DNA of 64,000 bases from Solirubrum puertoriconensis (GTDB lineage: Bacteria > Bacteroidota > Bacteroidia > Cytophagales > Hymenobacteraceae), in contig NZ_LNAL01000007.1 of assembly GCF_001483135.1 (NCBI RefSeq), positions 310,001 through 374,000 on the forward strand, in the 5' to 3' direction. The notes beneath the pieces are model-generated. The model had not been told where the DNA came from, ran no database searches, and saw nothing but the letters and a program-made list of their open reading frames with translations. The stretch's first letter is position 1, and each line of letters begins with the position of its first letter. The position numbers and the translations under genes are program-made. Shown here piece after piece: positions 1 to 26,800 of this stretch.

Positions 1-220
1 GGCGGTAATTGTTGCCTACTTCCCAAAGGGTCGCTTCCAGTGCCTTCTTTTCCACGACTTCACGCCCCAGCTTATCACGGTAGGTATGAAGGGTATCCTG
101 GAGGGCAGCGGTCAGGCGCTCGTTGCGCGTAACCTCTGACTGGAGTTCCTTGGCTCGGTGGCAGGTGACAACCAGCAGCGCCACCACGGCAATCAGCAGC
201 ACCTTAATCCAGTTTGCCAT
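1..220 (-). CDS. Partial small membrane protein with coiled coil (phage)
   Basis: The reading frame starts at ATG 220 and runs off the left edge with no stop, giving 73 visible residues. Residues 4-19 are a hydrophobic segment ending in VVTC, which could be a membrane anchor or a lipobox-like site. The rest is charged and heptad-like, rich in Glu, Lys and Arg, as in a coiled coil. The start overlaps the end of the upstream protease gene by 17 nt, so the two are probably translationally coupled. The shape fits small phage membrane proteins such as spanin-like or structural anchors, but no family can be assigned from the visible part. Confidence 0.6.
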   Translation of the reverse strand, partial: MANWIKVLLIAVVALLVVTCHRAKELQSEVTRNERLTAALQDTLHTYRDKLGREVVEKKALEATLWEVGNNYR

Positions 221-842
221 CGGTGCGCAGCTCGTTCAGGATGGCGTTGATGTCGTCTTCGATGGAACTCCAGTCGATTTCCTTCGGGGTTGCCTCGGAC
301 ATTTTCACCTGGGATTCGCGGAAACGGCCTTCCAGGCTGAAGCCGGTCACGTTGCCGGTCATCACCTCGGATTCCCAGAAGGTTTCGTCCAAGATTTTGT
401 ACGTAGCCATCATCGTCCCTTTGGGCAGGTGGAAGCCTAGGGCCGCAGCTTTGTCAACCTTTGGGTCTTCGATTATCCAGGATTCAATCAACTGGGCCTG
501 GACGGTATCCGACTGGTCGTGGTTCTTGTTGCTCAGGCGCAGGTTGCCCGTCTGCTGGAAGAACTTGTTCCGGATTTTCTCAATGTCGTCACTAGTGAAC
601 TGGATGTAATGTTCGCCCTGCTGGTCATCGTTGCGGTATATCAGCTTATCGGGAATGATTACAGCTGACGTTAGGTACCGCTTCATCTGGTCGGTGGCCT
701 TCAGGGTTACTTCCTGGGGTTCCGACTCCGAGAGTTTAACCGCCTGGACTTGCATCGCAGGACGGTCAACCATTGAAATCAGGAACATTCCGGTGTTATC
801 ATCGAATTCGTCAACCTGAAGTTGGAATACAGGGAGTTTCAT
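204..842 (-). CDS. XkdF-like phage prohead serine protease
   Basis: 212 residues. The N-terminal part contains FISMVDRPA-type sequence (here LISMVDRPAM, residues 21-30), which is typical of XkdF-like phage proteases. The middle carries KNHDQS with His108, and the later GFSLEGRF segment has Ser169. These are placed as expected for the His/Ser pair of prohead maturation proteases. Such enzymes cleave scaffold and capsid proteins during head assembly. The gene follows the tape measure gene after 16 nt and overlaps the next small membrane gene. A position after the tape measure is unusual, since this protease normally sits between portal and major capsid genes; the capsid gene is presumably to the left of the window. 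Family call by motif only. Confidence 0.65.
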   Translation of the reverse strand: MKLPVFQLQVDEFDDNTGMFLISMVDRPAMQVQAVKLSESEPQEVTLKATDQMKRYLTSAVIIPDKLIYRNDDQQGEHYIQFTSDDIEKIRNKFFQQTGNLRLSNKNHDQSDTVQAQLIESWIIEDPKVDKAAALGFHLPKGTMMATYKILDETFWESEVMTGNVTGFSLEGRFRESQVKMSEATPKEIDWSSIEDDINAILNELRTDGKLD

Positions 843-858
843 AAGGTATTGGATAGGG

Positions 859-3654
859 TTAATTCAAATAATGGTCGCTGATGCGGGTGCGGTCAGCTTC
901 GTAGGTCACGATGTCCGAGGGACGAACCGTGATAGGTTTCTGGAGGGCTGCGGCGGTCTGCTGCTGTAGCGTCTGGATGTTCTGTTGCATCGCTACCAGG
1001 ACGGTCATATCAACGCCCTGCTGAGGCGTCGGAACCGCTACCTGGGCGTAACCACCCTGGGCGTAACCGGTGCCGCCGTTTTGACGGGCAACCTCCAATT
1101 GAGCAATCGTAGAACTGAACTTCGGGCTGGTTACCATCCATTTCGGCGCCACCCATTCGTTTTCGTGAACCACCCCAGCCACCCGGAACCCGCTGTCGTC
1201 CGGAGTTCCGAAGCCCGAACCGGTGAAACCACCTTCATCGAACCCGTTGGCTAACTGTTTCGCAGAGGCAATAGCGGAGGCCGTAGCAGCCAAGGCCACC
1301 ACGATAGCGGCGAGGTTACCAGGGAAGGGGATGCTGTTGGCGCCTACCGTGGCCTTCACCGCAGCCTGGATAGCCAGACCAGCCGTGACAGCCTTATCGA
1401 TGCTAGCAGCGGCCAGGGCCAGACGGTTCATCTTCTCCTGTTCCTTCTGCTGTTGCTGCTGAAGGGCAATCTTTTCCTTCTCCGCTTGCTTTGCGCGGGC
1501 ATCTTCTTTCTGCTTATCGGCAGCTATAGCGGCGTTCCGCTGACGTTCTACCTCCAGTTGTTTGATGATGCGTTCACGCTGGGCGCCTTTCGCGTTCAAC
1601 AACTGGTCTTCCAGGGAATCGATTCTGGATTGGGAATCTTCCAACTGGGCATCCAGGGCGTCGGCAGCATCTTTCGCAGCGCCCAAGATGGAATCCGCTT
1701 CCTCCATCTGGGCCTGTAGGGCTTCCATCCGGGCCTGACCAGCCATCGTCAGGAGTTCCAGCGTCGTGTTCATCGCGGCGTCCGCAGCTTCGTTCACTTT
1801 CGCCTTGACTTCATCCAGGTCGTCATCGCTGACACCAAACAGTTTCTTCAGAATGGAGTCACCGAGGTCAGCCGTAGGCGCCGTGGCGATTTGCGTCACG
1901 ATTTCCCGACGTTGCTTCGCGGCTTCGGCCACGATTTTCGTCCGTTGGGCTTCGTTTTCCTTGGTATCCTTCAACTGAGCCAAGGCGAGACGTTCTTCGG
2001 CGTTGACTTGTTCTAGGAGAGCCTGGAAATACTCTTTGGTGCCTTCCCGGAGTCCCAGAACCTTCACCTGGGCCAAATCGGCTTCGTTCTGGGCAGCCTT
2101 CAGGGTTCGTTCCCGTTGGAAGTCGGCTTCAATCTTCTGCTGGGCAGCGTTACCAGCGGCCTGAACTTCTTTAACCTGCTGAACCAGGGCGTCCTTTTCC
2201 TTCGGCCCAGCCTTTTCGTACTTCTCGGTGATGCTGGCTAGCTGGGTTTCCGTCTCCAGTTCGGCCAATTGCTTCCGGAGTCGCAGTTGTTCAGTCGAAC
2301 CTTCTTCAGCCAGGGCCAATTCTCGTTCCAGGGCGGCTTTCTGGTTGGCGAACTTCAGGGCCGTAGCAGCCGAGGCGTCTGCGGCTTCCTTCTCCAGGCG
2401 GGCTTTGTTTTCTTCCACGGCCTTATCGGCAGCGGCTTTCCGTTCGTCGGCAGCGGTTTTGTCTTTGTCCTTTTGCTCCTGACGCAGGCCGTTCAACGTG
2501 TTCTGAAGCTCGGTCTGGAGTCCTAGGGATTCCTGAAGCACTTCGGCGCGTTGAACCTGGAGTTCAGCCAGGGCATCCTTATCGGCGCTAGTGATGTCAC
2601 CCTTCAGTTTGTGTTCGGCCTGGAGGTTCTGAATCTTCTGGTCGGTCAACCGAAGTTGTTTCTGAATCAGCGCGTCTTCGATGGCGGCTGCTTGCTTGCT
2701 GGCTTCGATGCGGGCCGTAAACGACTTCGTAACGTCCTCACTGGCCTTCTTCAGGGCTTCGATGCGGGCGCGGCTGTTGGCGCGTTCCACGTTCAGGGCG
2801 CGTTCCTGGGCGGAAATCTGCTGGTTGCTCAGGGCCAGACGTTCCGCTTCCTTGGCAGCGGCGGCGGCATCTTTGCCGAACTGCTGGAGGTTGGCTGAAA
2901 GGTTACGCGCCTTCTGAGAAGCGTTTTCGATGCCGGTACCGAACTGGATAACCCCGTTGGTAACCTTTTCGAAATCCATATCACGGATACCCTCCAGTAC
3001 CACGGCGAACGACTTCAGCCGGTTCATCAGGTTGGTTTGGATGGCGTCAACCAACTCGGTCAGCGTCTTCTTCGGATTCTGGAAGGCTTCGAAAAGGAAC
3101 TTCCCGACCTTGGCTACCTGCTGGCTCAGGAGGTTGAATACAGCCTGGAGCGCCTTCGTTTTGCGGTCTAGGAAGTTCATCGCTTCCTGACTGCGGGTGA
3201 AGTAGGTGACCAGGGCGCCGAACGCTAGCAACAGCAACCCGATACCCGTACTGGCTATAGCACCTTTCAGGGTACTGAAGCCTTTGACGACGGTGCCGAT
3301 GCCACCCTGAACCGATTGGAATCCACCCTGGAGGCTTTGCAATGCCTGACCGGTGTTACCCGCAGCCAGGGACGCAATGTTGAAGGCATCCTGGAACTGG
3401 GAACCCATCTGTTGCGCATTCTGACCGGCCTGATTTGCACCAGCCGAGGTCGCTTGCGTCTGCTGTTGTACCTGGGCCAACGCACGACGGGCCTGCTGAA
3501 GGTTCTGGGACAGTTGGGTGAACTGCTGGGAACCGAATTGGGCCTGATTCAACTGCTGTTCAAGCTGCTGAACCGTCGATTCCAACTGGGAAATGTTCGT
3601 TATCGCAGTCTGGACACCGTTGATAGTTAAATTGAATACTCTGCTATTAGCCAT
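859..3654 (-). CDS. Phage tail tape measure protein
   Basis: 931 residues. It begins with a Gln-rich coiled coil (about residues 20-90). A strongly hydrophobic segment at about 131-152 follows, then very long Ala/Lys/Glu/Gln coiled coil up to about residue 720, a second hydrophobic Ala-rich stretch near 760-800, and a Gly-rich tail. This is the standard plan of a tape measure protein, which sets tail length and passes through the tail tube. The C-terminal sequence with GFDEGGFTG and VHENEWVAPKWM is commonly seen in Bacteroidota tape measure proteins. By the usual rule of about 0.15 nm per residue the tail would be near 140 nm (inference). ATG 3654 is directly preceded by an AU-rich leader and a hairpin. 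Confidence 0.9.
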   Translation of the reverse strand: MANSRVFNLTINGVQTAITNISQLESTVQQLEQQLNQAQFGSQQFTQLSQNLQQARRALAQVQQQTQATSAGANQAGQNAQQMGSQFQDAFNIASLAAGNTGQALQSLQGGFQSVQGGIGTVVKGFSTLKGAIASTGIGLLLLAFGALVTYFTRSQEAMNFLDRKTKALQAVFNLLSQQVAKVGKFLFEAFQNPKKTLTELVDAIQTNLMNRLKSFAVVLEGIRDMDFEKVTNGVIQFGTGIENASQKARNLSANLQQFGKDAAAAAKEAERLALSNQQISAQERALNVERANSRARIEALKKASEDVTKSFTARIEASKQAAAIEDALIQKQLRLTDQKIQNLQAEHKLKGDITSADKDALAELQVQRAEVLQESLGLQTELQNTLNGLRQEQKDKDKTAADERKAAADKAVEENKARLEKEAADASAATALKFANQKAALERELALAEEGSTEQLRLRKQLAELETETQLASITEKYEKAGPKEKDALVQQVKEVQAAGNAAQQKIEADFQRERTLKAAQNEADLAQVKVLGLREGTKEYFQALLEQVNAEERLALAQLKDTKENEAQRTKIVAEAAKQRREIVTQIATAPTADLGDSILKKLFGVSDDDLDEVKAKVNEAADAAMNTTLELLTMAGQARMEALQAQMEEADSILGAAKDAADALDAQLEDSQSRIDSLEDQLLNAKGAQRERIIKQLEVERQRNAAIAADKQKEDARAKQAEKEKIALQQQQQKEQEKMNRLALAAASIDKAVTAGLAIQAAVKATVGANSIPFPGNLAAIVVALAATASAIASAKQLANGFDEGGFTGSGFGTPDDSGFRVAGVVHENEWVAPKWMVTSPKFSSTIAQLEVARQNGGTGYAQGGYAQVAVPTPQQGVDMTVLVAMQQNIQTLQQQTAAALQKPITVRPSDIVTYEADRTRISDHYLN

Positions 3655-3719: not shown

Positions 3720-6350
3720 TTACGGCGCGTCCGGGTCACGGATACAGGATAGCTGGGACGTCGCATCGTCCAACGCCATTTGATAGGCAACGTCATCGGC
3801 GTCCTGTTGGCTAACGCTGGACGTGTACGTGGCCGTAGCTTCGGTACCGGCGCCGATGTAGCCATCCGGGCAGTAGGCGTACGCTGTCTGGGTTGACGTC
3901 CAGGTTTGGGGAGTTCCACCACCGTTATCACCCGTACCACCCGAGGTCGGTGGGTTGCCGGTGCCACCCGAGGTCGGTGGGTTACCCGTTCCACCCGAGG
4001 TCGGTGGGGGCGTTGTCGTACCTCCACTAGTGACCGGTATCGATGGCAACCCGGTTTGGGTATCGTGACTAACGAACTTGTACAGTTTCACCGTGGCGTA
4101 TTCCTTTCTCAGGTCGTAATTCCGGATGGATTCCAACAGGTACAAATCCGATTCGAGGCGCAGCAATTGTCGTCCGGTCAGGTGGGTGAACAAATCCGGA
4201 TTCATTCGGCTGACACCCTGCACGTAGTTCGATAGGTTGCCTATCAGCAGGTCATTCGAGTACAGCAGGTAGAAGATACCCTTCGGGTTCTCCGAACTTT
4301 CCACATTGGGGGCCAACGATACGGTGTCGAGTTCCGGAAGGCGGGCAACATCCCGAAGGATTACCCCGTCGCCTCCGCTGCTGTAGATGGTGGCGCCCGT
4401 GGCTTCCTCCAGGTCGTAGCTGCGGAGGGTGGTATTCTCGGTCAGGCGGTAACTGGGCTGGTTGTTGACATCGAAGAAGCTAACCTTCGGAGGCAGGCCC
4501 GTGAATTCGTAAGTTCCTGGGGTATAACCACCCATCACGTTGCCGCTAGCGGGCGTGAAGCGACCGAAACCCGTACCTAGGCCCAGTTCCGGGCGTAGCC
4601 AGGTATTGCCGTGGTACAACAGCAGGCGCGGAACCCAGCTTCCGGGTTGGGTGAAGTTATCGATGTCGTTCAACACCGACAGGTCTTCGGAATCCTGAGC
4701 CGGAAGGATGGCCGGAAGCAAATCTTCACCCGTGAACGTGGTACCTCCACTGGTTTGCCCGCTGTACGTAACCCGCACGAACGGCAGCGGCGCGAACGGA
4801 AGCTGGGTGGTTTCCTCCGGTTGGAGTCCGTTCACCTTCTCCAGGTAGTCGGTGTTCTTCAGGATGTGGTCGTTGTCATCCGGAAGGTAACTCAGGTAGG
4901 TTTGCCCGATTTCCGCTTCCGTCAGCGGAAGGTCGTCCGTCTGGTTCACGTCCAGGTAGGGCGTCATATCAACGATTTCCTGAAGCGATTCCTGAATGAA
5001 GTCGTCCCGAGTCAGCAGGGTTACCGTCTTTTCTTCCTCGTTCAGTTGGTAGAAGAGGTTGAAGATTTTGAAGACAGCCTGGACGAATTCAGCCTGGTTC
5101 ATATCCGGCAGGAACAGCGCCGGGTTTACTAGTAGCGGCCCATCTACGGTAGAAATCCGGAAACCTCCGGTGGCCGGGTTGTAGGTGAAGACCGGCGCGG
5201 CGTCGTGGGTGGCTTTATCTACCGAGAAGTACCGCTGAATCTGGTACTGTTTCCCTTCCTCCAGGCGGGCCGTGAACGAGAAGGTTCCGTCACCGACTCC
5301 CAGGGTATCCATATCCAGGAACTCCAGTTGGGGCGTTGCGAACGATGACGACGCAGGTAACATATCCTCGGGGATGGTTTCCGCGTCGGTGATGCAGCGG
5401 AAGGCCGTGAAGGCTGGGCTGGTCAACACCGTTCCGTTGGTGCGGGAAATAACGTGTTCAGCCCGTAGGCGGAAGGAGTACATACCGGTGAACTTCGCGG
5501 TATAGACGCCATCCCCACCGAGGGAATTACACAGGTCGCCTTCGAACGGCGTCCAGGGGTACACCATCACGTACACGTAGTCGTTCTGACGGTCAATCCG
5601 CTTCAGAATCGAACTCTGGTAGCCGCCACCCAACCACAGCGGAGGGGTATCGGCGCCCAACGGGGCTAACTTGCCGTAGTTCCACGCCTGGGGCTGGCTG
5701 CTGGAATACAACATCACCAGCTTCCGGAAGGTACCGTTCTGGAGGATGTCACCAGCCAGGGTATATCCGGCATCCGCGAAGATGTTCTTCAGTACGGCGC
5801 CTACATAGTGGCTAATGCCTAGGTCTTCGTAGCTGATGCCTAGCTGACCGTGTTTGAGCTGATAGAAGCTGTTTAACACCGTTGGGTAACAAACCTCGGA
5901 GTCCGGGAAGGCCACGGTGTTCGTCCAGGAGTCCATCACCGACTGATTGCCGGAGAAATCCAGGCGCGTGAATGACTTGATGTCGGTCAGTTTCTTATCC
6001 TGGAGGATGTCACCGAGCTTCGGGTTCGTGATGCGGGCTTCCCCAACAGCACCTTCGAAACCCTTGCCGGAGTTCTTCAGGTGAAGGAAGGTACCATCGA
6101 CAACCAATTGGTCATCGACAATCAACTGGGCCGCGTAGCTGCGGCGAAATTTGCCCAGGATTTGTTTGTCGTTTTCGCCCTGGAAGATGCCGATGTTCTT
6201 CTGGTTGTACGGCAGCACTAACGGCAGGCTGAACGTGCCCGTCTTTTTCAACGGGTCACGGTATTCGCTCACGACTTTATCCAGTTGGATAGCTACGTCC
6301 TCGTTCAGGTCAGCTAATTGGCCGTTGATGTATAGTTCGATACGGTTCAT
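3720..6350 (-). CDS. Large phage tail structural protein (Dit/tip-like), DUF5977-like end
   Basis: 876 residues. The N-terminus (ELYINGQLADLNEDV...) matches a pattern I know from Bacteroidota phage tail proteins, in which an N-terminal Dit-like region leads into a large variable body. Near residues 775-805 there is a Gly/Pro/Thr linker made of 9-residue repeats (PPTSGGTGN type). After it comes a short domain with Tyr/Thr-rich strands and a SQQDADDVAYQ motif, like DUF5977 domains found at the ends of Bacteroidota surface and phage proteins. It is probably part of the tail tip or a receptor-binding structure. The start is coupled to the upstream gene by a TAATG stop-start overlap at 6350. The exact role is an inference. 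Confidence 0.6.
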   Translation of the reverse strand: MNRIELYINGQLADLNEDVAIQLDKVVSEYRDPLKKTGTFSLPLVLPYNQKNIGIFQGENDKQILGKFRRSYAAQLIVDDQLVVDGTFLHLKNSGKGFEGAVGEARITNPKLGDILQDKKLTDIKSFTRLDFSGNQSVMDSWTNTVAFPDSEVCYPTVLNSFYQLKHGQLGISYEDLGISHYVGAVLKNIFADAGYTLAGDILQNGTFRKLVMLYSSSQPQAWNYGKLAPLGADTPPLWLGGGYQSSILKRIDRQNDYVYVMVYPWTPFEGDLCNSLGGDGVYTAKFTGMYSFRLRAEHVISRTNGTVLTSPAFTAFRCITDAETIPEDMLPASSSFATPQLEFLDMDTLGVGDGTFSFTARLEEGKQYQIQRYFSVDKATHDAAPVFTYNPATGGFRISTVDGPLLVNPALFLPDMNQAEFVQAVFKIFNLFYQLNEEEKTVTLLTRDDFIQESLQEIVDMTPYLDVNQTDDLPLTEAEIGQTYLSYLPDDNDHILKNTDYLEKVNGLQPEETTQLPFAPLPFVRVTYSGQTSGGTTFTGEDLLPAILPAQDSEDLSVLNDIDNFTQPGSWVPRLLLYHGNTWLRPELGLGTGFGRFTPASGNVMGGYTPGTYEFTGLPPKVSFFDVNNQPSYRLTENTTLRSYDLEEATGATIYSSGGDGVILRDVARLPELDTVSLAPNVESSENPKGIFYLLYSNDLLIGNLSNYVQGVSRMNPDLFTHLTGRQLLRLESDLYLLESIRNYDLRKEYATVKLYKFVSHDTQTGLPSIPVTSGGTTTPPPTSGGTGNPPTSGGTGNPPTSGGTGDNGGGTPQTWTSTQTAYAYCPDGYIGAGTEATATYTSSVSQQDADDVAYQMALDDATSQLSCIRDPDAP
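3937..4008 (-). repeat. 27-bp tandem coding repeat in tail protein linker
   Basis: Three near-identical copies of CCACCCGAGGTCGGTGGG begin at 3937, 3964 and 3991, giving an exact 27-bp period (nine codons). They encode the flexible Gly/Pro/Thr linker between the body and the C-terminal domain of the tail protein. The copy number could change by slippage. Confidence 0.85.
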
Positions 6351-7543
6351 TACAGGTTGATACTATTTTCTTCCACGGCAGGCGACACCGTAAGGTTGAT
6401 GACGCTCAGGCCCAGGCTGGAATCGATTTTGAAGGTGTCGTCCTGGGGCCGCTGGTATTTGCCACCGATGTAGATGGCTGGGGAGTGCTTCAAATCGTCC
6501 AGCCACCGAAGTTCGGCCTGGGTCAACCACTGGCTGTAGTAGGTCACCGACTTCTGGCTGTTGATTTGGTAGGCGCGGGTGTTGCTGACGCTGCTGAAGG
6601 TGTTCACCTTCGTCTTCACCTCGGTATCGGTGTCACGGCGGAATTGGATGGAGTCCCAGCCACCCTTCCGGTTCATAAACAGCACCGGAATCGGGAGGGG
6701 GATTTCCTCCGCTACCTGGAATTCCTGCTGGTTGCTCAGACGGATGGTTCCCTGTTCTTCGTCTTCGTAGTCGAGGTAAACCGAATAACTAGTGATGTGG
6801 CTGTAATTGATGTGGGCTACCAGCCGTTCGGGCTTTACGTTAATCAAATACAGACCTCCAGACGTGATTTCCTCGGTATGGAGAGTGTAGCCCTGTTCCG
6901 GGGCTGCGGACTTGAACTGAAGGTCTGCTTTGACGTGAATCTGGACGTTGCTGCTATCCGGGTTCGTAGCCAGGAAGAAGGCCAACAGGGTGTCTTCGTT
7001 GCGGCGCCGTTGGATACCATCGGGCATATTGGTGAGGAAGTTCACGGGTTCGCCGTCGAACTGGTACACGTAGCCCAGCATATCACCGGATTCATCCAAC
7101 GGCAGGGCCGCACGTACGGCCACCTTCACGGGTGATTCGTGACGGTAGTTTTTGACCTGCTGATTCTGGGTGTTGTAGGTGATGTAACCCGTCCGGAAGT
7201 AGTACGCCACGTAGGCCGTTTCGTCCTTTTGGTACACTAGTAACGGGTTCGGTACCCGCTGGGTATCGTGACGGAACTGCGTCTGGAGGGCGCTACTCAA
7301 ATCGAACGAACACGTTCCATCACCGGGGCCGTTCTTGGTCAGGGTGCGGAGTAGGGTAGCACCGGTTTTGGGAGTTCCGGAAAGCTGGATGTTCTTCGTT
7401 GGAAGTGTCCAGATTTCCACGAAGAACAGTTGGCCGATGGAATACGGGTCTTTGGTAACACGAACCGTCATCGGGTTACCCACGGATTGTATAAAGGACG
7501 GTGATTCGGTTACGGAATAGGTGATAGGGGTAGCTACTGCCAT
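6350..7543 (-). CDS. Phage structural protein of unknown function
   Basis: 397 residues, beta-rich by appearance, with no signal peptide or membrane segment. It sits between the neck genes and the large tail protein. The spacing is 5 nt after the upstream gene, and its stop overlaps the next start (TAATG). The size, composition and fixed place next to the Dit-like protein suggest a tail or baseplate component, for example a tail-tube-associated or adaptor protein. I do not recognise a named family. A major tail tube protein would be expected near here, and this or a missing gene could fill that role. Confidence 0.55.
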   Translation of the reverse strand: MAVATPITYSVTESPSFIQSVGNPMTVRVTKDPYSIGQLFFVEIWTLPTKNIQLSGTPKTGATLLRTLTKNGPGDGTCSFDLSSALQTQFRHDTQRVPNPLLVYQKDETAYVAYYFRTGYITYNTQNQQVKNYRHESPVKVAVRAALPLDESGDMLGYVYQFDGEPVNFLTNMPDGIQRRRNEDTLLAFFLATNPDSSNVQIHVKADLQFKSAAPEQGYTLHTEEITSGGLYLINVKPERLVAHINYSHITSYSVYLDYEDEEQGTIRLSNQQEFQVAEEIPLPIPVLFMNRKGGWDSIQFRRDTDTEVKTKVNTFSSVSNTRAYQINSQKSVTYYSQWLTQAELRWLDDLKHSPAIYIGGKYQRPQDDTFKIDSSLGLSVINLTVSPAVEENSINL

Positions 7544-7548
7544 CGGGG

Positions 7549-8121
7549 TTAATTTTTATCAGAGAAGGTTACTTCCAGAACGCTGACGATTTCTGGAATC
7601 ATTATTTGGTCAACCACCTCGGCAATGAGTAGCTGTTGGAAGTCCAGGGTGGCTTCGATGAAGGGCCGGGCCTTGATGCCGTTGCGGTAAATGCTGCGTT
7701 GGATAGCCACGGCAGCGGAGTTCACCGATTCGGCGCTGGCTTTGCGGAACACGCCCGTTCGCTTCACGCGCCCCAGGATGCGGTACCGCTTTACCCAGGC
7801 AATCAGCATATCCAGCGGTACCATCTTCGTTCCGGGCTGACGTCCGGCGTCCAGGGCTTCGCCGTACTCGGGCAATTGAATCAGGCCACCGTCCGTCGTC
7901 ATTGTAACCTTCGTGTTGTGCCACAAACCCGACTGGTCACGACGGATGTTGTGGCGTCCGCTCAGCTCCAGTTCCGCGAACATAAATTCCTTGATGGCGT
8001 CCGCTACCTCCTGAAGTTCTCTGTCCAGGTAGGGTTTGACCTGTTTGCTGGTGAAGACGTTGCCGGAACCCGAACCCCGTTGGATAGACCGGATAATCTG
8101 GGGTATAGACTTCTTTTTCAT
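7549..8121 (-). CDS. HK97 gp10-like neck / tail completion protein
   Basis: 190 residues, basic N-terminus. The central part has PGTKMVPLDMLIAWVKR, and the C-terminal part has NGIKARPFIEATLDF. The combination of an internal basic helix and an RPF(I)E/A ending resembles HK97 gp10-like head-tail joining proteins. The gene begins with a TAATG overlap with the stop of the previous gene, so it belongs to the same translationally coupled morphogenesis operon. The family assignment is by pattern and not certain. Confidence 0.5.
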   Translation of the reverse strand: MKKKSIPQIIRSIQRGSGSGNVFTSKQVKPYLDRELQEVADAIKEFMFAELELSGRHNIRRDQSGLWHNTKVTMTTDGGLIQLPEYGEALDAGRQPGTKMVPLDMLIAWVKRYRILGRVKRTGVFRKASAESVNSAAVAIQRSIYRNGIKARPFIEATLDFQQLLIAEVVDQIMIPEIVSVLEVTFSDKN

Positions 8122-8609
8122 TAGCTACCGAAAATCTTCTTCAGGTCTTCTAGGGGCGTATCCTGGGCTTCCACTTCTATTGTGAATTCACCGCGTAGGC
8201 GCTTCAGACGGGAATCCTGGGTATCGTTGAACACTAGTACCGAGGCGGGGCCGATGTTGGCTTCACCGAAGACTTCCACCCGTTCGAGGTAGTTCAGGAT
8301 TTCGAAGAAGGTTTGTTCCAGCCGGTCAGCAATGTTCACCGACTCAGAACGGGCGCCTTCCTGGGGTTCTCTGTCCAGGATGTTCAAGGCCACGGAATAG
8401 GTCTTCGAACGTTTCCGTTCGCCCTGCTGGATGTCGGTGATGGTTTCCAGGTATGCCAACGGGAATTCGTAGCTGGAACCCGAGTCACCGAAGGTCTGGA
8501 GTTCACCCGTATCGTAGCTGGCAATACTGAGGTGACGACGGCAAACGTCACCCAGGGTATCGTATAGTTTCTTCAGCGTTGCCTTCCGCTGGGCGTAATG
8601 TTCAGTCAT
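8121..8609 (-). CDS. Putative tail terminator / neck protein
   Basis: 162 residues, soluble, with a helical N-terminus and mixed alpha/beta remainder. The segment SSYEFPLAYLET resembles the FPLVFLE-type motif of tail terminator proteins in Bacteroidota phages. Start ATG 8609 lies 3 nt after the stop of the -1 frame of the upstream gene (8613), which supports that frame as the real end of the upstream gene. It ends in a TAATG overlap with the gp10-like gene. Confidence 0.45.
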   Translation of the reverse strand: MTEHYAQRKATLKKLYDTLGDVCRRHLSIASYDTGELQTFGDSGSSYEFPLAYLETITDIQQGERKRSKTYSVALNILDREPQEGARSESVNIADRLEQTFFEILNYLERVEVFGEANIGPASVLVFNDTQDSRLKRLRGEFTIEVEAQDTPLEDLKKIFGS

Positions 8610-8612
8610 TAA

Positions 8613-9469
8613 TTATTTAGTCTTTTCGTATTGCTCACGGCGGAAGTCGTTTACTTCTTTCCGGTACTGGAGTACCGTAAGGACATCTGCAATAGGCGCA
8701 GATAACAACGCAGGATGTTTGAGAACATCCGGTTCCAAATCGTAGAGGGACGCCATCCAGCCGTACGTTGCGCCGATATGCTGTCCGAAAGTCCGTTCAG
8801 CAGCGGTTGAATGCGGGTTAGCTTGGAATAATGCTGGGTAACTAGTTTGAATGCTTCCGATTTGTCCAAAAAAAAACCTTCCAGGGCCTTCACTTGGCAG
8901 GGATTGAGGTGCTGACGGAAGAGTTTGGCCCTGGATTCAATCCAATCCATACTGTTTTCGGCCTGCTCGTACACGTCTTCGGCTTGGGTAACCTCGGTTT
9001 TGCGTCCCAGCAGGCGCCCAAACCAGCCGATGTTATCCTGTTTTTCAGCCGTTTTCCGCTTCTTCCGCAGCAACAGCGCCATCAGATAGGGCATCTGGGC
9101 GTTTACATCGTCCGGAAAGGCCGTGGTTATCTTGTCGAAAGCGGCCAATTCACCCATCGTTTCAATCGGACGGGCGTAGTATTCGGTACCCAGGATGGTT
9201 ACCGAGTCGGTTGGAATCAATTCCGGCGCCGTTTTCAGGAACTCCAGGTGGCTGAACAACGGAATCACCACCCCGAACCCAGCTTCCTCCAGCAGTTCCA
9301 CGGGGTAACCGGTCAGGATGGAAACAATCCGGGTTGCCTTATCGGTACCCGACAGACCTTCTTCAGCGTCCAGACGGGCAATGTTCAGGAATTGGTCGAA
9401 CGTGACTTCTTCCCAGCAGGTCGGCAGGTAGCGGGTATCGGTATTGAGGGTGACGGGTATCTTCTGCAT
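8613..9469 (-). CDS. Tail-assembly-chaperone-like protein made by -1 frameshift
   Basis: The zero frame from ATG 9469 runs to a stop at 8651 (272 residues). A run of nine T on the coding strand (8868-8876) forms a T TTT TTT slippery heptamer at codons 198-200. A -1 shift gives an 85-residue extension ending at 8613, for 285 residues in total. The extension looks like real protein (ATYGWMASLYDLEPDV, then a charged C-terminal helix) and ends 3 nt before the next gene. The zero-frame tail is Arg/Ser-rich and leaves a 41-nt gap. The N-terminus (CWEEVTFDQFLNIARL) resembles tail assembly chaperones, whose long form is usually made by -1 frameshifting. The odd point is its place just after the large terminase and not before the tape measure. 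A sequencing error in the homopolymer is the alternative explanation. Confidence 0.65.
8868..8876 (-). other. Candidate -1 ribosomal slippery site (T9)
   Basis: Nine T residues on the coding strand, in frame as GGT TTT TTT TTG, which contains the canonical X XXY YYZ heptamer T TTT TTT. Both codons can re-pair with the tRNA after a one-base slip. No strong stem-loop was identified just downstream by eye. Confidence 0.7.
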
Positions 9470-9493: not shown

Positions 9494-11104
9494 CTACACC
9501 ACGGCGTAGTAGAAGCTGGACTGACGGGCGTTCAGGATGGCGTACACCAGGGCGTCCAGCGCGTCGTCGTGGCCTTTGCCGGTACCATCGGTGAAGGCGG
9601 TTACCTCGTCAATAAATTCATCGTTCCAGGCGCCTTTCAGCAGCCAAAGACGGCCACCTTCCACGAACGGAACGGCCTTCAGGGCGCGGCCTGCTTTGCT
9701 GACGCCTGCTGGGTCTAACGGCAGTACCGGAGTATTCACGTCCTGGGCCTTCACTAGCGACAGCAGGGACGAACCCACGGATTTCTTCTCGATGAAACAG
9801 CGGCGAATCGGCGTCGTGGTCAGGTCGTAGCTGCGCAGGTAGGTAACCAGGTCACGAACCAGGTCAGCGGGTTCCTTCCGAACCCAGCGAACATCCTTCA
9901 CGAACAACTGATTGTCCAGGCGGGCGCACAGCAAATAGCAGGTGGCGTCATTCTTTGGATTCGCGGTTTCGGCGCCGTCAACAAACAATTGCCACTCCAG
10001 GCCGCGTCCGTTGACCTTGGCTTCGAATTCGCCTTGGGTGATGATGTTCGGACGCATCCAGTCCGCTTTGAACATTCCACCCTCGGTATCCCTGGGTGTC
10101 TGAAGGTGCTGCTGGGCGTACACCCGACTACCCATCATTTCCTTCTGTTCGTCCAGGTCGTCACGGCTGAAGCGGCCTGGGGAATCCCAAATCAGGCGAG
10201 TTCCGTCGTCTCGGCTGTCGTCTAGGTCGTAATACTGGAACCAGTCACGGGGGCTGACGTCGTGTTCCGACTTGGCTTCACTAGGAAGCTTAATCAGGCG
10301 CCACCGTTGGGGTTGCTTCTCCAGTAGGAAACCCGTCATATCCTGGACGTGAAGGCGCTGCTGGATATTGATGATGACACCCACCTGTTTGTTGTCCAGG
10401 CGCGTGTAGATGGCCTTCTGGAATTGCTGGATGGCTTCTTCCCGTTTGGCGTTGCTGTCCGCCATTTTGCTCGACATCAGGTCGTCGCACAACACCAGGT
10501 CAGCATTGTTACCCGTGATGGAATCCGAGTTCACCCCGAACGCCTTCCGGAACCCACCTTTGTCGTTGCCGATTTCGGCGTAATTGTGGGTGGTCAGTTT
10601 GAATTCCTGACCGTAAAGGCGCTGGAACCACCCGGATTTGATGATGTTCGCGGAGTACGACACCAAATCAGCGGCCAACCCTTCGGTGTGGGTAACCGTC
10701 AGGATGCGAAGGCTGGGGTTGTGCAGCCACAACCAGACCGGGAAGAAGACCGAGAAGATGTAGCTTTTGGCCGAACGAGGCGGGATGTTGACAATCAGGT
10801 GTCGGTCACGGGGTAAACCCTGAGCTAGTTTTAAACCGACTTCCTGGAGTTCATCACATAGAAACCTCTGGTACCACGCGCCTTCCTGGAAGTTCTGGCC
10901 TTCGGCGTAGGAAAACGCAGCCTTGAAGAACTCCCAATACGACTTCCGGTATAGTACCCGCTGAAGGTTCAACAACAGGTCAGGGTCTTCCGCTAGCGGG
11001 TTTACCTGGGGTTTCACCTTCCGGGGGCGCCCACCTTTGTTTTTGGGTTTGTGTTGTTCGACTACCTGGGGTTCGTTCGATAGGTTTTCAGTTATGTCAG
11101 ACAC
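9494..11104 (-). CDS. terL: Phage terminase large subunit
   Basis: 536 residues. The N-terminus carries a GGRPRKVK AT-hook-like basic patch. The ATPase domain shows a Walker A-like NIPPRSAKS (about 106-114) and a Walker B LVLCDD (about 203-208). The C-terminal nuclease domain has FVDGAE with a metal-binding Asp near residue 380 and the HDDALDAL motif near residue 518. The enzyme packages DNA into proheads and cuts concatemers. The frame opens at GTG 11104, and I see no better ATG that keeps the AT-hook region. It follows the small subunit by 23 nt. Confidence 0.93.
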   Translation of the reverse strand: MSDITENLSNEPQVVEQHKPKNKGGRPRKVKPQVNPLAEDPDLLLNLQRVLYRKSYWEFFKAAFSYAEGQNFQEGAWYQRFLCDELQEVGLKLAQGLPRDRHLIVNIPPRSAKSYIFSVFFPVWLWLHNPSLRILTVTHTEGLAADLVSYSANIIKSGWFQRLYGQEFKLTTHNYAEIGNDKGGFRKAFGVNSDSITGNNADLVLCDDLMSSKMADSNAKREEAIQQFQKAIYTRLDNKQVGVIINIQQRLHVQDMTGFLLEKQPQRWRLIKLPSEAKSEHDVSPRDWFQYYDLDDSRDDGTRLIWDSPGRFSRDDLDEQKEMMGSRVYAQQHLQTPRDTEGGMFKADWMRPNIITQGEFEAKVNGRGLEWQLFVDGAETANPKNDATCYLLCARLDNQLFVKDVRWVRKEPADLVRDLVTYLRSYDLTTTPIRRCFIEKKSVGSSLLSLVKAQDVNTPVLPLDPAGVSKAGRALKAVPFVEGGRLWLLKGAWNDEFIDEVTAFTDGTGKGHDDALDALVYAILNARQSSFYYAVV

Positions 11105-20681: not shown

Positions 20682-22208
20682 TTAGATCAATTGGAACAAC
20701 GGAATCTTCTGCACCTCGGCGCCCAGGTTATCCGTTTTGTTTGCGTACTTCATCAACGTCTGGACTTCGATGTGGCCGGTCATCCCTTGAATCTTCGGAA
20801 TCGATAGAGCCTGCTGGAAACAGTAATTGATGAACGTTCTGCGACCTGAGTGACTTCCCAGATATTGCCATTTCTTCGTCCGTTCGTCCCGAATCAATTC
20901 CTTACCGCAGTATTCGCCACGGATAACCTCGGTCTGGAGTTCGGGAATATCCTGGGCAAACTCCCGAAGCAATTGGATGAAATAGAAGTCTTCCATCATC
21001 GGGATTTTGTAATCGTACTTCCGAAGAATCATCTTCACTAGCGGCGTCACGGGTATCACGCAGCGGATACCCTTTTTGATGGTTTTTACGGGCGTGACGT
21101 GAAGTTCTTCCTGACCCTGGGCGTTCTTCTTCACCAACGGTTTGAAGTCCTGGAAGGCGTCAGAAATGCGTAATCCGGTGGCGCACATAAACACCATAAT
21201 ATCCTTCGTCCGCTCGTAGTCCGGGCCGCTAGTGCGGTTGGGTTGGTGCGCGTACTTCTTCAGGGGCTTCTGGTAGCCCATAAACGCCCGAAGTTCGTGG
21301 TCTTCCAGGTACACCACGTCGTTGTCGGCCATCGGTAACTGGAACTTGTACTTCTTGTAATTGGGGTTCACGGGGGCGTCATCGGCCCAGTAGTTCAGAA
21401 TCGATTTTACCTTGGTGATGTAGTTTTCGATTGAGGGGTTCAGGATGCCTTCGGAAATCATATGGGCTTCCAGGCCGTACAGCGCCTCGCGGTTCACGTC
21501 CTGAAGCTTCAGGTTCGCGTCGTAGCGGTTCAGCAGGTTCACAATCGACTGGTAACCCCGAATGGTCGCTTTACCCAGGCTGTTCTTCCGGGTTTCCAAC
21601 ATCCTCTGAACGTAGGTAACGAAGAGGTCAGCGGTCTGCTCGGGCTTCTTCAGGGTCTTTCTGCCCATCACCTCGTTGAACGTCTGGGCGTACAGCGGGT
21701 CTTTGCTCAGGGTGATGAAGTTCTTCGGCCTTTCCAGGGTATCCGATTGCTCAATCAGGGATTTCGTCTGCTGGCGTTGGGCCGCTAGTTGTTGTTCTAG
21801 GTCACGAATTCGTTCCTGAATATCTTCCTCCGCTAGCTTTGACTTAATCGTGGTGCTCGTATGCTCCAGCACGTTCGTCCGCTTCTCGAACTGGTCACGT
21901 TTCTCCTTTGCTAGGCGGGTGGTCTTCACCCTCTCGTACTCTTCCCGAAGTTCGTGCTTATCGAAGCCGATAACACCACGGTCACAAATCTGGGTGTAGG
22001 CTGACATCAGGTCGTTACAGATGTCGTTCACCAAGTCGTTCAGCGGCGAACGGTCACCGACTACGCGCCCGTTCTTGAAGATTTTGGGTTCAATCTGATA
22101 CCCCGTGGGTACCACTAGTTCGACTTTGCCGTGGCGGAAAATGACGTTCAGCGGTTGTTCCGACTTGCTGGTGTTGACCTTGCGGAGGAAGGGCGTACAG
22201 GTTGCCAT
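20682..22208 (-). CDS. int: Tyrosine recombinase / phage integrase
   Basis: 508 residues from ATG 22208, where the protein begins MATCTPFLRK, the usual opening of Bacteroidota phage-type integrases. The open frame extends to 22349, but that stretch contains the promoter and iterons. The N-terminal arm-binding region is followed by a coiled coil (about residues 105-160) and a SAM-like core-binding domain. The catalytic domain shows the Arg of TGLRISDAF, HSGRRTF (H-x-x-R), and GHIEVQTLMKYAN with the His and the nucleophile Tyr. The enzyme integrates and excises the prophage, and its place next to the host boundary fits. The coiled-coil insertion makes it longer than usual. Confidence 0.93.
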   Translation of the reverse strand: MATCTPFLRKVNTSKSEQPLNVIFRHGKVELVVPTGYQIEPKIFKNGRVVGDRSPLNDLVNDICNDLMSAYTQICDRGVIGFDKHELREEYERVKTTRLAKEKRDQFEKRTNVLEHTSTTIKSKLAEEDIQERIRDLEQQLAAQRQQTKSLIEQSDTLERPKNFITLSKDPLYAQTFNEVMGRKTLKKPEQTADLFVTYVQRMLETRKNSLGKATIRGYQSIVNLLNRYDANLKLQDVNREALYGLEAHMISEGILNPSIENYITKVKSILNYWADDAPVNPNYKKYKFQLPMADNDVVYLEDHELRAFMGYQKPLKKYAHQPNRTSGPDYERTKDIMVFMCATGLRISDAFQDFKPLVKKNAQGQEELHVTPVKTIKKGIRCVIPVTPLVKMILRKYDYKIPMMEDFYFIQLLREFAQDIPELQTEVIRGEYCGKELIRDERTKKWQYLGSHSGRRTFINYCFQQALSIPKIQGMTGHIEVQTLMKYANKTDNLGAEVQKIPLFQLI

Positions 22209-22280
22209 CAGGGGCCTGGAATAGGGGAGTGGAAATTGGATTCTCCGGAACGGTGGAAAACCTCTCGTAACTGACTGCCC

Positions 22281-22288
22281 CAAAGGTA
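22281..22288 (-). promoter_or_regulatory. -7 element of the integrase promoter
   Basis: On the minus strand TACCTTTG, a perfect TAnnTTTG match, 73 bp before ATG 22208. There is no clear TTG at -33; that position is covered by the 12-bp repeats, which suggests repressor- or activator-controlled transcription. Confidence 0.65.
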
Positions 22289-22292
22289 ATAG

Positions 22293-22326
22293 TCTGTACT
22301 GAACTCTGTACTGATGTCTGTACTGA
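22293..22326. repeat. Three 12-bp direct repeats (TCTGTACTGA) at integrase promoter
   Basis: TCTGTACTGA begins at 22293, 22305 and 22317, exactly 12 bp apart. The set lies immediately upstream of the integrase -7 element. This fits either an operator array or integrase/excisionase arm-type sites of the attachment region. Confidence 0.8.
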
Positions 22327-22399
22327 TGGCAAGAAAAAATCCTCTCCAATTGCTCAGAAAGGGCATTTTTAATTGTTACCTGTTTTGGTTGTGGAAAAG

Positions 22400-22770: not shown

Positions 22771-23736
22771 TTACCAAAAACGGTTGGTGCACACTACTTG
22801 GGCTTTCTTCTTGATACGCAAGCCTACGAGCACTTCGTGGCTGCCACCGTGGTAGCCTGCCAGCTCTGAAAGGCCTGCGTCGTAAGCGTAACCGACGGTG
22901 AACTGCTCGTAGCTAAGGCCTGCCATAGCTACCACCGAGTCGAAAGCCCGCCACGATACACCTGCCCACAGTAAATCCTGGTACTTCACTTTGGCGTTGA
23001 GATCGAGCGAAAGCGGAGCCGGGCTAACGGCTTTAACCAGCACCGATGGCACAAAGGACCAGTCGTTGCTAAGCGGCACCCGCACGCCACCGGTCAGGAA
23101 GTAATGGCGTTTGAGTACGTTGCCGGGAGCACCAGATTCCAGTTGGTTGGGGCCGTAAGCGAAGTTGAGCTTGTTGCCAAGCAATTGCGCGCCCGATAGC
23201 CCAACGTAGAAGCGCGAGCTGTATACCCACAAGCCCACGTTTACGTCGGGCACCCGAGAGGAGGCGCTTGGCGCAACGGTAGTAGGATCGAAGAACTGCA
23301 ACTGCGACCCATCGACGGCAAACTGCTGCAGACCCACCGTGGCACCTAGGGCGGCCCGTAAATCGGGGCGCAGCACAAGGTTGTAGGCGTAGGAGGCATA
23401 AAAACCCGTTCGGCTGGTAGGGCCCGTAACGTCGCGGTACATTATGCCGCCGATGGCGTGAAAAGGCCGACGCCGGTCGCGAAGGGTACGTTTGCTGGTG
23501 CTGCGCCACTTGCCCAACGAGGAGTTGGCCGTGAGGTAATACGTTTTGGGTGCTCCTTCGAGGCCGGCCCACTGGGTGCGGTAGCTGGCCTTCACATCGA
23601 TGTAATCCTCCACACCGGTAGCGCCAGGGTTCAGGAGGTAACTGTTGAGCATGTATTGGCTGTACTGCGCCTGTTGTTGGGCCAGGGCTGGCGCTGCGGC
23701 TAGTAGCAGCACCAGCAGTGGTAGAGCTCTTGTCAT
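22771..23736 (-). CDS. PorP/SprF family outer membrane protein (type IX secretion)
   Basis: 321 residues from ATG 23736 (MTRALPLLVLLLAAAPALA: a signal peptide). After it comes the family hallmark QYSQYMLNSYLLNPGATG, and the rest is a repeated beta-strand pattern ending in GLRIKK. PorP/SprF proteins sit in the outer membrane and are usually encoded beside large CHU_C proteins, to which they help anchor or export type-B cargo. This is the case here: the 1625-residue protein gene is 69 bp upstream on the same strand, so the two form an operon. Confidence 0.9.
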   Translation of the reverse strand: MTRALPLLVLLLAAAPALAQQQAQYSQYMLNSYLLNPGATGVEDYIDVKASYRTQWAGLEGAPKTYYLTANSSLGKWRSTSKRTLRDRRRPFHAIGGIMYRDVTGPTSRTGFYASYAYNLVLRPDLRAALGATVGLQQFAVDGSQLQFFDPTTVAPSASSRVPDVNVGLWVYSSRFYVGLSGAQLLGNKLNFAYGPNQLESGAPGNVLKRHYFLTGGVRVPLSNDWSFVPSVLVKAVSPAPLSLDLNAKVKYQDLLWAGVSWRAFDSVVAMAGLSYEQFTVGYAYDAGLSELAGYHGGSHEVLVGLRIKKKAQVVCTNRFW

Positions 23737-23805
23737 AACCGTGATGGTCTTTAGGCCTGTCCAGAAAGGGTTGTCCTGCTGCACAAGCTGCAGCAGGACA
23801 GTTAA

Positions 23806-26800
23806 TTAATACAGGATCGTAATCGACCCGCTATAGGACCGACCCAGCGGACCCTTCGTGACGATGACGTAGTAGTACGTGCCGACCGGCGCGGGCTGGC
23901 CGTTTATGTCGCCGCGCCATTCGTTGGAGCGGCCGTAGTTGCTGGTTGAGAAAACCCGGTTGCCCCAGCGGTTGAACACGCTCACGGTATTCTCGGGGAA
24001 CTGCTCGATAAACTCAATCTGCCAGGTATCATCGCGGCCATCACCGTTGGGCGTGAAGGCGTTTGGAATGCGAATGGGCGGACGCACCGTCACCGTAACT
24101 TGGTCGCTATCAGCGCAACCATCAGCCCCGGCCGACAGGGTGTAGGTGGTGGTAACGGTGGGCGAGGCCAACGGCCGCAGCGGGTCGTTGTCGGGGAAGG
24201 TTAGCCCTGTAGTAGGCGTCCACGTCACGGGGTAATTACCGTCGGCGCGGCCTTCCAGCCTAACAGAAGTGCCTGCCAGAATTTCCTTGTCGGGGCCGGC
24301 ATTTACATCAACTGGCGGCTGAATGCGTACCGGTACCCCGTTGGAAACAGCCGTGACGGGTTGCCCGCAAACGTTGGTGGTGCGCAGTCGCAGCGTTACG
24401 GTTTGCCCTTCGCGCAGTGTGGTGCTGGTAAACACCGGGCCCGTGGCGCCGGGTACGTCGGTGCCGTTTACCTGCCATTGGTACTCGGGCGTGGGGCCCG
24501 GCTCTGTTACGTTGGCAATGCTGAAGGTAAGCGGCGCACCTAGGCAAACCGGGCCGCCGGGCTGCACTGCAATGGTAAGGGTGGGTTGCGGCGTTGGCGT
24601 GCGCGTGATGGTAACGGTAGCGGTGGCCGGCCCTGTGTTGCATAGCCCAGCAGTAGGTGTTACTTCCACGCGTACTTGGTCGCCGGTAACCAGTGTGCTG
24701 CTCGTAAACGTGGGCCCGGTAGCTGCGGGCGAGTTATTCACAAACCATTGATAAGTGGGCGAGGCGCCCACGTTAGTAGCCACGGCCGTGAACGTCAGAG
24801 GCGTACCCGGGCACTGCACGGGCGGCGGCGTCAGGCTCACCGTGGGCGTTACCAGGGGTTGTACCTGAACGGTTACCACATTTGTAACCGCTGAGGCGCA
24901 TGTGCCGGTACCCGAGGTAACCCGGCGGCGGAAGAAGGTGGTAGCCGAAAGCGGGCCAGGAGCAAAAGTTTCGCTGGTAGCGCCGGCAATGGCGGTCCAG
25001 TTCGTGTTGTCGGCCGACGATTCCCACTGGTAAGCAAACGTACCCGTGCCACCGTTGGCTCCGCTAGTGCTGCTGAGCGGCGCAGGCGTAGTACCAGCGC
25101 AAATGGACTGATCGGCAGCGATACCGCCCGGGGCCAGAACTGGTAACACCCGTATCACAACTGGCTGCGAGGTTTCGGGTCCGCAGGCGCCGGAGCGCAC
25201 CTGGCGGCGGAAGTAGGTGGTGGCCGAAAGCGGGCCGGGATTGTAATCGGCCCCAGTAGCGCCGGGTATGGCCGTCCAGGTGTTGTTGTCGGGCGACGAC
25301 TCCCACTGATAGGCGTAGCTACCTAGGCCACCACTCGCAACTGCGGTGCTGGTAAGTGGTGCAGGGGTTGCCCCAATGCAGATTGTCTGATCGGCAGCTA
25401 TGGAACCGGCTACCAATGGTGGTGCTACGGTTATGGTAATAACATTGGTGTAAACCGGACCGCAGGCGCCAGCTGTAGCCCGGCGGCGGAAGTAGGTCGT
25501 AGCCGTTAGCGAACCGGGCGCAAACGTTGAGCCGGTAGCGCCGGGCAGGGCCGTCCAGTTCGTGTTGTCGGCCGACGATTCCCACTGGTAGGCAACGGTG
25601 CCCCCGCCGCCTGCCCCCGGAGCCGTGCTCGTGAGTGGCGCCGGGGTAGCACCCGAACATAGCGTTTGGTCGGCGGCGATGCTGCCGGCCGTCAGAGCCG
25701 GTAATACTGTAATGGTAACGGTATTAGAGGCGGAACTGCTGCAGGTGTTTGTGCTTATCCGGCGGAAGTAGGTGGTAATAGAAAGTGGGCCGGGTGCGAG
25801 AGTCTCGCTGTTGGCGCCGGGGACAACCGACCATGTGCTGTTATCGGTTGACGCTTCCCACTGGTAGGTAAACGTACCCGCACCACCCGATGCTGGAGCC
25901 GTGCTCGTCAGGGGCGCCGGGGTGGCGCCTGCGCAAATCGTCTGGTCGGCGGCGATGCTGCCAGGTGTTAGGGCCGGCAGTACCGTTATTGTTACTGCAG
26001 ACGAAGTTTCGGGTCCGCAGGCGCCGGAGCGCACCTGGCGGCGGAAGTAGGTGGTGGCCGAAAGCGGGCCGGGGGCGAAGGTCTCGGCGGTGGCACCAGA
26101 TATGGCCGTCCAGGTGGCATTATCCGGCGACGACTCCCACTGATAGGTGTAGCTGCCCGTGCCGCCCGTGGCCCCTGTGGTGCTAGTAAGCGGAGCAGGA
26201 GTAGCACCCGGGCACAGCGTTTGGTTGCTGCCAATGGTGCCAGCTGCCAACGCTGGCGCTACCGTGATAGTAACCACGTTGGAAAAGACCGGAGAACAGC
26301 TGCCTGAGCTAGCTTGCCTGCGGAAATACGTGGTAGCATTCAGCTGCCCCGGCGCAAACGTTGAGCCGGTAGCGCCGGGCAGGGCCGTCCAGTTCGTGTT
26401 GTCGGCCGACGATTCCCACTGGTAGGCAACGGTGCCCCCGCCGCCTGTCCCCGGAGCCGTGCTCGTGAGCGGGGCAGGCGTGGCGCCGGCGCAAATGCTT
26501 TGGTCGGCAGCAATGGTGCCAGCTGTGAGGGCCGGCAACACCGTAATCGTAACGGTATTAGTGGGTGGAGCAGGGCATGTTCCGGAGCGCACCTGGCGGC
26601 GGAAGTAGGTGGTGGCCGAAAGCGGGCCGGGGGCAAAGGTCTCGGCGGTGGCGCCGGGTACCGACGACCAAGTGCTGTTGTCGGTTGAGGCTTCCCACTG
26701 GTAGGCGAACGTGCCCGTGCCGCCCGTGGCTGGGGTCGTGCTCGTGAGCGGGTCAGGCGTGGCGCCGGCGCAGATGGTCTGGTCGGCGGCGATGCTGCCC

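Follow-up and report, generated by a model that had tools for sequence, protein, structure and literature searches.

Probable programmed recoding at a conserved T run in a candidate tail-assembly gene of Bacteroidota phages

The two-frame gene and its prophage

The window, that is, the whole 64-kb stretch of DNA analysed here, carries a prophage that includes an integrase, a terminase, a portal, a head protease and a tape-measure-like gene. Within it, on the minus strand, lies a gene (8613..9469) whose two reading frames meet at a run of nine T residues. The zero frame (8651..9469, minus strand) encodes 272 aa, comprising a conserved N-terminal domain (residues 1-200) and an unconserved tail (residues 201-272). 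The T9 run (8868..8876, minus strand) begins at CDS offset 593 of the coding strand, is read as GGT TTT TTT TTG and contains the slippery heptamer T_TTT_TTT in phase across codons 198-200. A -1 change of frame after codon 200 would add 85 further residues, giving a long product of 285 aa whose C-terminal domain, FFFGQIGS...YEKTK, is encoded at 8613..8876 (minus strand), with its stop codon at 8613-8615. The next gene starts at 8609, leaving a gap of 3 nt from the -1 stop and of 41 nt from the zero-frame stop. An earlier note on this DNA had described the heptamer in the zero frame, the 85 open residues of the -1 frame and the distances of both stops from the next gene, and all of these proved exact.

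Directly upstream is the gene for the terminase large subunit (9494..11104, minus strand; PHROG phrog_38, E 3.5e-80), and directly downstream that for a 162-aa protein with no assigned function (8121..8609, minus strand). The same strand continues with a 190-aa protein (7549..8121) weakly matching PHROGs without function (best E 0.0039), a 397-aa module protein (6350..7543) that weakly matches a family of virion structural proteins (E 0.015), and an 876-aa module protein (3720..6350) with no significant family, which directly precedes the tape-measure-like protein of 931 aa (859..3654; phrog_21537, virion structural, E 1.1e-10; phrog_24, tape measure, E 1e-4). A head maturation protease of the XkdF type follows (204..842, minus strand; Pfam Peptidase_S78_2, E 3.7e-13), and the integrase lies at 20682..22349 on the minus strand (PHROG phrog_1, E 8.5e-17). 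Elsewhere in the window, inspection by eye pointed to a protein of 1625 aa that contains numerous near-identical repeats and ends in a gliding-type C-terminus (23806-28683), to a PorP/SprF-like gene beside it (22771-23784), and to a pectin or uronate utilisation cluster with SusC/SusD-like pairs, glycosidases and uronate enzymes (29345-60449).

The position of the gene is shared widely among its relatives. The order terminase, two-frame gene, ORF of about 145-160 aa and ORF of about 180-210 aa recurs in G000, G083, G043, G241 and L046; L047 and L048 show the same gene order with ORFs of 139-166 aa, L048 having a small extra ORF before the gene; and in G711 the terminase and the two-frame gene are followed by ORFs of 154 and 685 aa. 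In most relatives read, an ORF of 139-161 aa follows the two-frame gene. A 196-aa ORF separates the gene from a terminase-like ORF in G447 (terminase assigned by eye). Overall, 15 of the 21 diverse members have a terminase match no more than 1.6 kb upstream, not always adjacent, while five queries and their finds gave no terminase match near the other 6 or near any of the 14 single-frame loci. The earlier note had regarded a location directly after the terminase as an oddity; for this family it is commonplace. In one copy (G860, L026/L146), a two-frame T9 gene adjoins a lipoyl synthase-like gene with no terminase nearby, both judged by eye, and may be a lone remnant.

Although the T9 is the sole A or T run of nine across the window, shuffled versions of the window contained 0.85 such T runs on average and at least one in 41 of 100 shuffles; the whole 4.8 Mb genome holds 15 pattern matches, overlaps included. 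Since shuffling shows that a lone T9 is nothing uncommon in the window, the case for recoding was built on comparison, and it is the conservation of the run, judged across related sequences, that exceeds chance. An IMG/VR copy (L009) is identical to the window over 10.6 kb and was therefore counted as the same genome and not as independent evidence.

Conservation of the slip site and the -1 domain

With the 200-aa N-terminal part as query, matches were obtained in 8 of 204 genomes of the host family, the window's own genome included. The seven other relatives, at 26-46% identity to the window's N-terminal part, all have a T run at the same place (T9 in six, T7 in L006, which reads GCT TTT TTT ACC), and six of them carry the conserved C-terminus in the -1 frame. 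The contig of the seventh, L005, ends exactly at the T9, perhaps at an assembly break. Wider profile searches found matches in 14 of 390 genomes of the order, 16 of 395 of the class and 7 of 395 of the phylum, these sets overlapping, and 1, 4, 3, 57, 1 and 3 loci on viral contigs in successive searches. In Mucilaginibacter, 109 of 149 genomes matched, 101 of them at E below 1e-75, and the best 30 of the 109 were read as loci.

Counts at the slip site refer to 94 distinct two-frame members, of which 21, counting the window's own gene, are diverse and 73 belong to the Mucilaginibacter type; they are not statistically independent of one another. Before counting, we set aside L005 (contig end at the run), L113, L116 and L134 (truncated ahead of it), the single-frame relatives, and the unclassified G015 (L022/L028), which has neither run nor heptamer. 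Duplicates were also removed: L042, L043 and L046 are the same as L016, L018 and L008, and the removal of 11 identical-protein rows reduced 105 to 94. The two-frame members come from eight families of one Bacteroidota class, from viral contigs and from an isolated phage, and their N-terminal parts diverge to about 20% identity among members that keep the run.

Comparison of these members shows that the in-phase T_TTT_TTT is kept in 93 of the 94; the one member without it, L105, seems frame-broken upstream. Run length differs by group. Among the diverse members, T9 occurs in 20 of 21 and T7 in one, with the T9 in codon phase xxT TTT TTT TTx in 18 and xTT TTT TTT Txx in 2, and in the Mucilaginibacter type (n=73) there are 61 T7, 9 T8 and 3 T9. 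No run longer than nine was seen among the 94. A second set of 63 Mucilaginibacter loci, overlapping the 94, comprised in-phase T7 in 44, T8 in 8, T9 in 4 and no run in 7, six of the latter being cut just before the run and one lying at a contig end. In the Mucilaginibacter type, 72 of 72 members use TTT for the two Phe codons of the slip site, but the eight other conserved Phe columns mix TTT and TTC, with 5-41 TTC each, indicating that the bases are held and not merely the amino acids.

The domain encoded in the -1 frame is likewise conserved. Unbroken relatives carry a conserved C-terminal domain in one frame, and it is the same domain as the -1 tail. At E<=1e-3, a profile built from the C-termini of the single-frame relatives L030, L039, L148 and L152 recognised 78 of the 95 -1 peptides, among them 72 from the 73 Mucilaginibacter-type members and 6 from the 21 diverse ones, and none of the zero-frame tails. 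This profile missed the window's own -1 peptide (E 1.3) and that of Nonlabens phage P12024S; a -1 profile made without the window's clade (L001-L004 left out) matched the window's -1 peptide at E 4.4e-10. In the overlap, mismatches at -1-frame codon positions 3:1:2 stood at 5102:2882:1161 over 364 Mucilaginibacter-type pairs of equal length whose mismatches numbered more than 5 and amounted to less than 30%. The earlier note had named homologues with one continuous frame as a ground for rejecting its reading. Such homologues do exist, yet they encode the C-terminal domain without any shift, a finding in support of the -1 reading. The comparison of both C-termini with homologous phages that it had proposed also favours this reading, with the -1 domain conserved and the zero-frame tail not.

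A tree of N-terminal parts (47 rows, including 14 of the 73 Mucilaginibacter-type members; rooted at its midpoint merely for drawing, with many weak forks) places a single-frame group of 9 rows apart from the remaining 38, which are two-frame except for L030 and L039, the latter on a long, unsure branch. Within the two-frame part, all deep lineages include T9 apart from the Mucilaginibacter clade, which has mainly T7; among two-frame rows, T7 and T8 are confined to that clade and L006. L030 and L031 are sister genes from one genus, the first a fused frame with T7 in which TGA would stop a -1 slip immediately, the second with T9 and two frames, so that in this pair the gene with the fused frame is also the one whose run lacks two Ts.

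Homopolymers are error-prone, and the L005 contig even starts at the T9, but the same run and the same -1 domain recur in many separately assembled genomes, so that a sequencing mistake, or decay of the gene in this prophage, is extremely improbable. Chance or sequencing error is excluded because the run and the -1 domain are conserved across relatives; the conserved run, phase and -1 domain also rule out a pseudogene and phase variation. The programmed -1 change of frame put forward in the earlier note is thus strongly supported, its run, phase and -1 domain all being kept in relatives. Taken together, the locus looks like a deeply conserved recoding site, and a real switch, in a gene family without a named function.

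The Mucilaginibacter matches belong to an element of about 24 kb (L136-L137, G711; 109 of 149 genomes) with a terminase, the two-frame gene, a head protease, a portal, an endolysin and a conserved 428-aa protein taken as the capsid protein; 106 of the 109 genomes have one match each. No integrase or replication gene was found among the 22 ORFs scanned of the 49 listed in G711, and the element could be gene-transfer-agent-like or a domesticated prophage. A conserved location of the element, with genes of 231 and 133 aa as its host flanks, was considered and not retained, since the 231-aa gene is an S24-type repressor that may belong to the element. In L177, L197, L199, L205 and L226, the gene breaks off several bases short of the T run and is fused there to an 82-aa gene that belongs to the opposite end of the element; L178 is cut likewise with another junction. 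Neither the capsid-like gene nor the -1 domain was found in the six genomes whose match ends at the cut; the junction was read in four of these, and two have a completeness below 90%. On the tree, the cut rows do not group together and force at least 3 changes, so similar deletions seem to recur.

Proposed slippage by the ribosome or by RNA polymerase

We consider it likely that a single start gives rise to two proteins, a probable tail-assembly pair, through programmed recoding at a run made up solely of Ts late in the gene. From the sequence comparison, we infer both the production of the two proteins and their ratio: most product would stop in the zero frame as the 272-aa form, with its N-terminal domain and unconserved tail, and a fraction would shift to -1 after T_TTT_TTT, gaining the conserved 85-residue domain to reach 285 aa. 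The earlier note had proposed a programmed -1 frameshift at a slippery site. The -1 recoding itself is borne out by the comparison, but RNA polymerase slippage on the T9 is a serious alternative as to its agent. The choice between ribosome and polymerase appears near even, with both acting in the T9 lineages a real possibility.

A purely ribosomal shift, in which tandem tRNA-Phe would slip on U_UUU_UUU and the extra Ts would be irrelevant, comes close to an even chance without quite reaching it. It accords with the in-phase T7 or T8 of 69 of 73 Mucilaginibacter-type members and of L006, runs below the nine nucleotides from which many genomes show selection against polymerase slippage (PMC1088944), and with the description of tail-chaperone recoding as ribosomal frameshifting in passages of PMC5009743. 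In E. coli, the frameshift rules would accept either U_UU.U_UU.C or an ending in.U (PMC4066793), yet C never occupies the final position of the heptamer, which is T in 72 of 72 Mucilaginibacter-type and 21 of 21 diverse members. The two Ts after the heptamer, which a purely ribosomal shift would leave irrelevant, are kept in 18 of 21 diverse members versus 3 of 72 of the Mucilaginibacter type.

The lack of a downstream RNA structure, as far as nested structures go, also speaks against the ribosome. Folding of the 60 nt downstream, nested structures only, gave mean z values of -0.22 and -0.09, and RNAalifold on 36 sequences returned 0 pairs; no downstream RNA stimulator was thus found among nested structures. 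Compared with canonical X_XXY_YYZ sites, the family has the in-phase heptamer (93 of 94 members) and shows no nested downstream stimulator, a feature that is common but not obligatory.

Under polymerase slippage on the T9, a share of the mRNA would carry ten Us and both forms would be read normally, a reading that we regard as credible at somewhat under an even chance. It fits a run length of precisely nine, shared over deep branches by 20 of 21 diverse members and by P12024S, and the occurrence of the T9 in two codon phases, 18 and 2 of 21, P12024S having the second. Nine is also the length from which selection against polymerase slippage is visible in many genomes, although the length depends on the organism, and mxiE provides a precedent (both PMC1088944). 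An A or T run of about nine, as expected of transcriptional slippage, is present in the window, whose gene is one of the 20 (of 21) diverse members that have it, but is missing from the T7 lineages; the existence of those lineages, with the heptamer phase retained, argues against the polymerase, as does the absence of any run above nine among the 94 members.

Weighing the two agents lineage by lineage, the shift in the T7 and T8 relatives would most likely be ribosomal, with two tRNA-Phe slipping back one base, and in the T9 lineages, the window among them, RNA polymerase slippage inserting one extra U may add to the shift or dominate it. A bolder joint reading, which we offer tentatively, is that a large unnamed Bacteroidota phage family tunes its tail-chaperone ratio by RNA polymerase slippage, not by the ribosome, on a T run fixed at nine; Mucilaginibacter would have trimmed the run to the bare ribosomal heptamer, and L030 (T7, fused, with an immediate -1 TGA) would have reversed the logic as in dnaX. 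Since T9, T8, T7 and fused versions exist among the relatives, the question of ribosome versus polymerase is directly testable at one site.

Candidate roles and related systems

By analogy and from its module, a chaperone pair is the likeliest role. The two products would probably act in tail assembly like lambda gpG and gpGT, the abundant short form as a chaperone and the rare long form joining two partners. As with gpG/gpGT, the gene would, judging by sequence comparison, yield a short and a long product with a common N-terminus and a late -1 shift in a structural module. It differs in lying directly after the terminase and four genes from the tape measure, in its pure T run, and in that no sequence similarity or clear fold similarity was found. 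Neither the N- nor the C-part of the window's gene matched a Pfam or PHROG family at E<=1, and among 13 N-parts no family was matched by more than one member at E<=0.1. The model of the N-terminal part (pLDDT 78) matched no PDB fold at E<=0.001, and a PDB sequence search gave nothing usable. Against BFVD, it matched 32 viral proteins at E<=0.001, uncharacterised or unnamed and including those of P12024S and Flavobacterium phage 6H; matches named tail assembly chaperone appeared at E 0.62 and 0.70. A model of a full-length single-frame relative (pLDDT 42.7) was set aside. The earlier label of tail-chaperone-like therefore stands as plausible from the -1 pair and the module, but the gene has no family match and is not beside the tape-measure gene; because it lies four genes from the tape measure and no similarity to known chaperones was found in these searches, we did not file it as a lambda-type chaperone.

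A less likely alternative accepts both proteins as genuine but assigns them to head-tail joining or packaging and not to tail-length chaperoning. The proximity of the gene to the terminase, adjacent or nearby, would suit such a role, as would the four ORFs that separate it from the tape measure in the window and in G043 and the five in G083 (tape measure assigned by eye in G043 and G083). However, phages with long tails normally need a tail chaperone of this kind, and no other two-frame gene was seen by eye before the tape measure in the window's ORF lists. The chaperone pair is thus retained as the likeliest role.

A counterpart in an isolated phage is a two-frame T9 gene of Nonlabens phage P12024S (L172, JQ823122, 23136-23830). 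Its genes _38 and _39 lie after the terminase and share the T9 and the N-terminal part (E 1.4e-13), and the -1 domain is matched by a profile of 21 diverse -1 peptides (E 1.2e-5); they differ in that the T run falls one base earlier in codon phase and in being annotated as two hypothetical proteins. The N-part of phage P12024L is 99.4% identical to that of P12024S. Gene 3 of Elizabethkingia phage TCUEAP1 (MN732896), directly after the terminase, has a C-terminal domain like that of L039 (E 9e-9) but one continuous frame and no T run of six or more seen. Similarly, phrog_28240, without assigned function, matches the C-terminal part of single-frame L039 (E 3.7e-6) but not the window's own parts. 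In Flavobacterium phage 6H (L171, KC959568, 10352-10927), the N-part matches at E 2e-4, and the frame change, a T6 followed by C with an early stop in -1, fits neither pattern.

Among known slippage systems, Shigella mxiE has a homopolymer run within the gene and two ORFs joined by one inserted base, and Thermus thermophilus dnaX a homopolymer run of nine As within the gene (PMC1088944). The window's run departs from both in containing a ribosomal slip heptamer in phase and in having relatives with T7.

No description of tail-chaperone recoding in Bacteroidota phages was found among the top matches in open-licence papers; the GeneTack study covered 22 Bacteroidetes genomes (PMC3711429). The finding is ordinary in principle, since phage tail chaperones recode, and unusual in its site, its place and its host group. 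What emerges is a recoded gene family whose parts in the window lie outside Pfam and PHROG models, and whose member in an isolated phage carries an annotation as two hypothetical genes.
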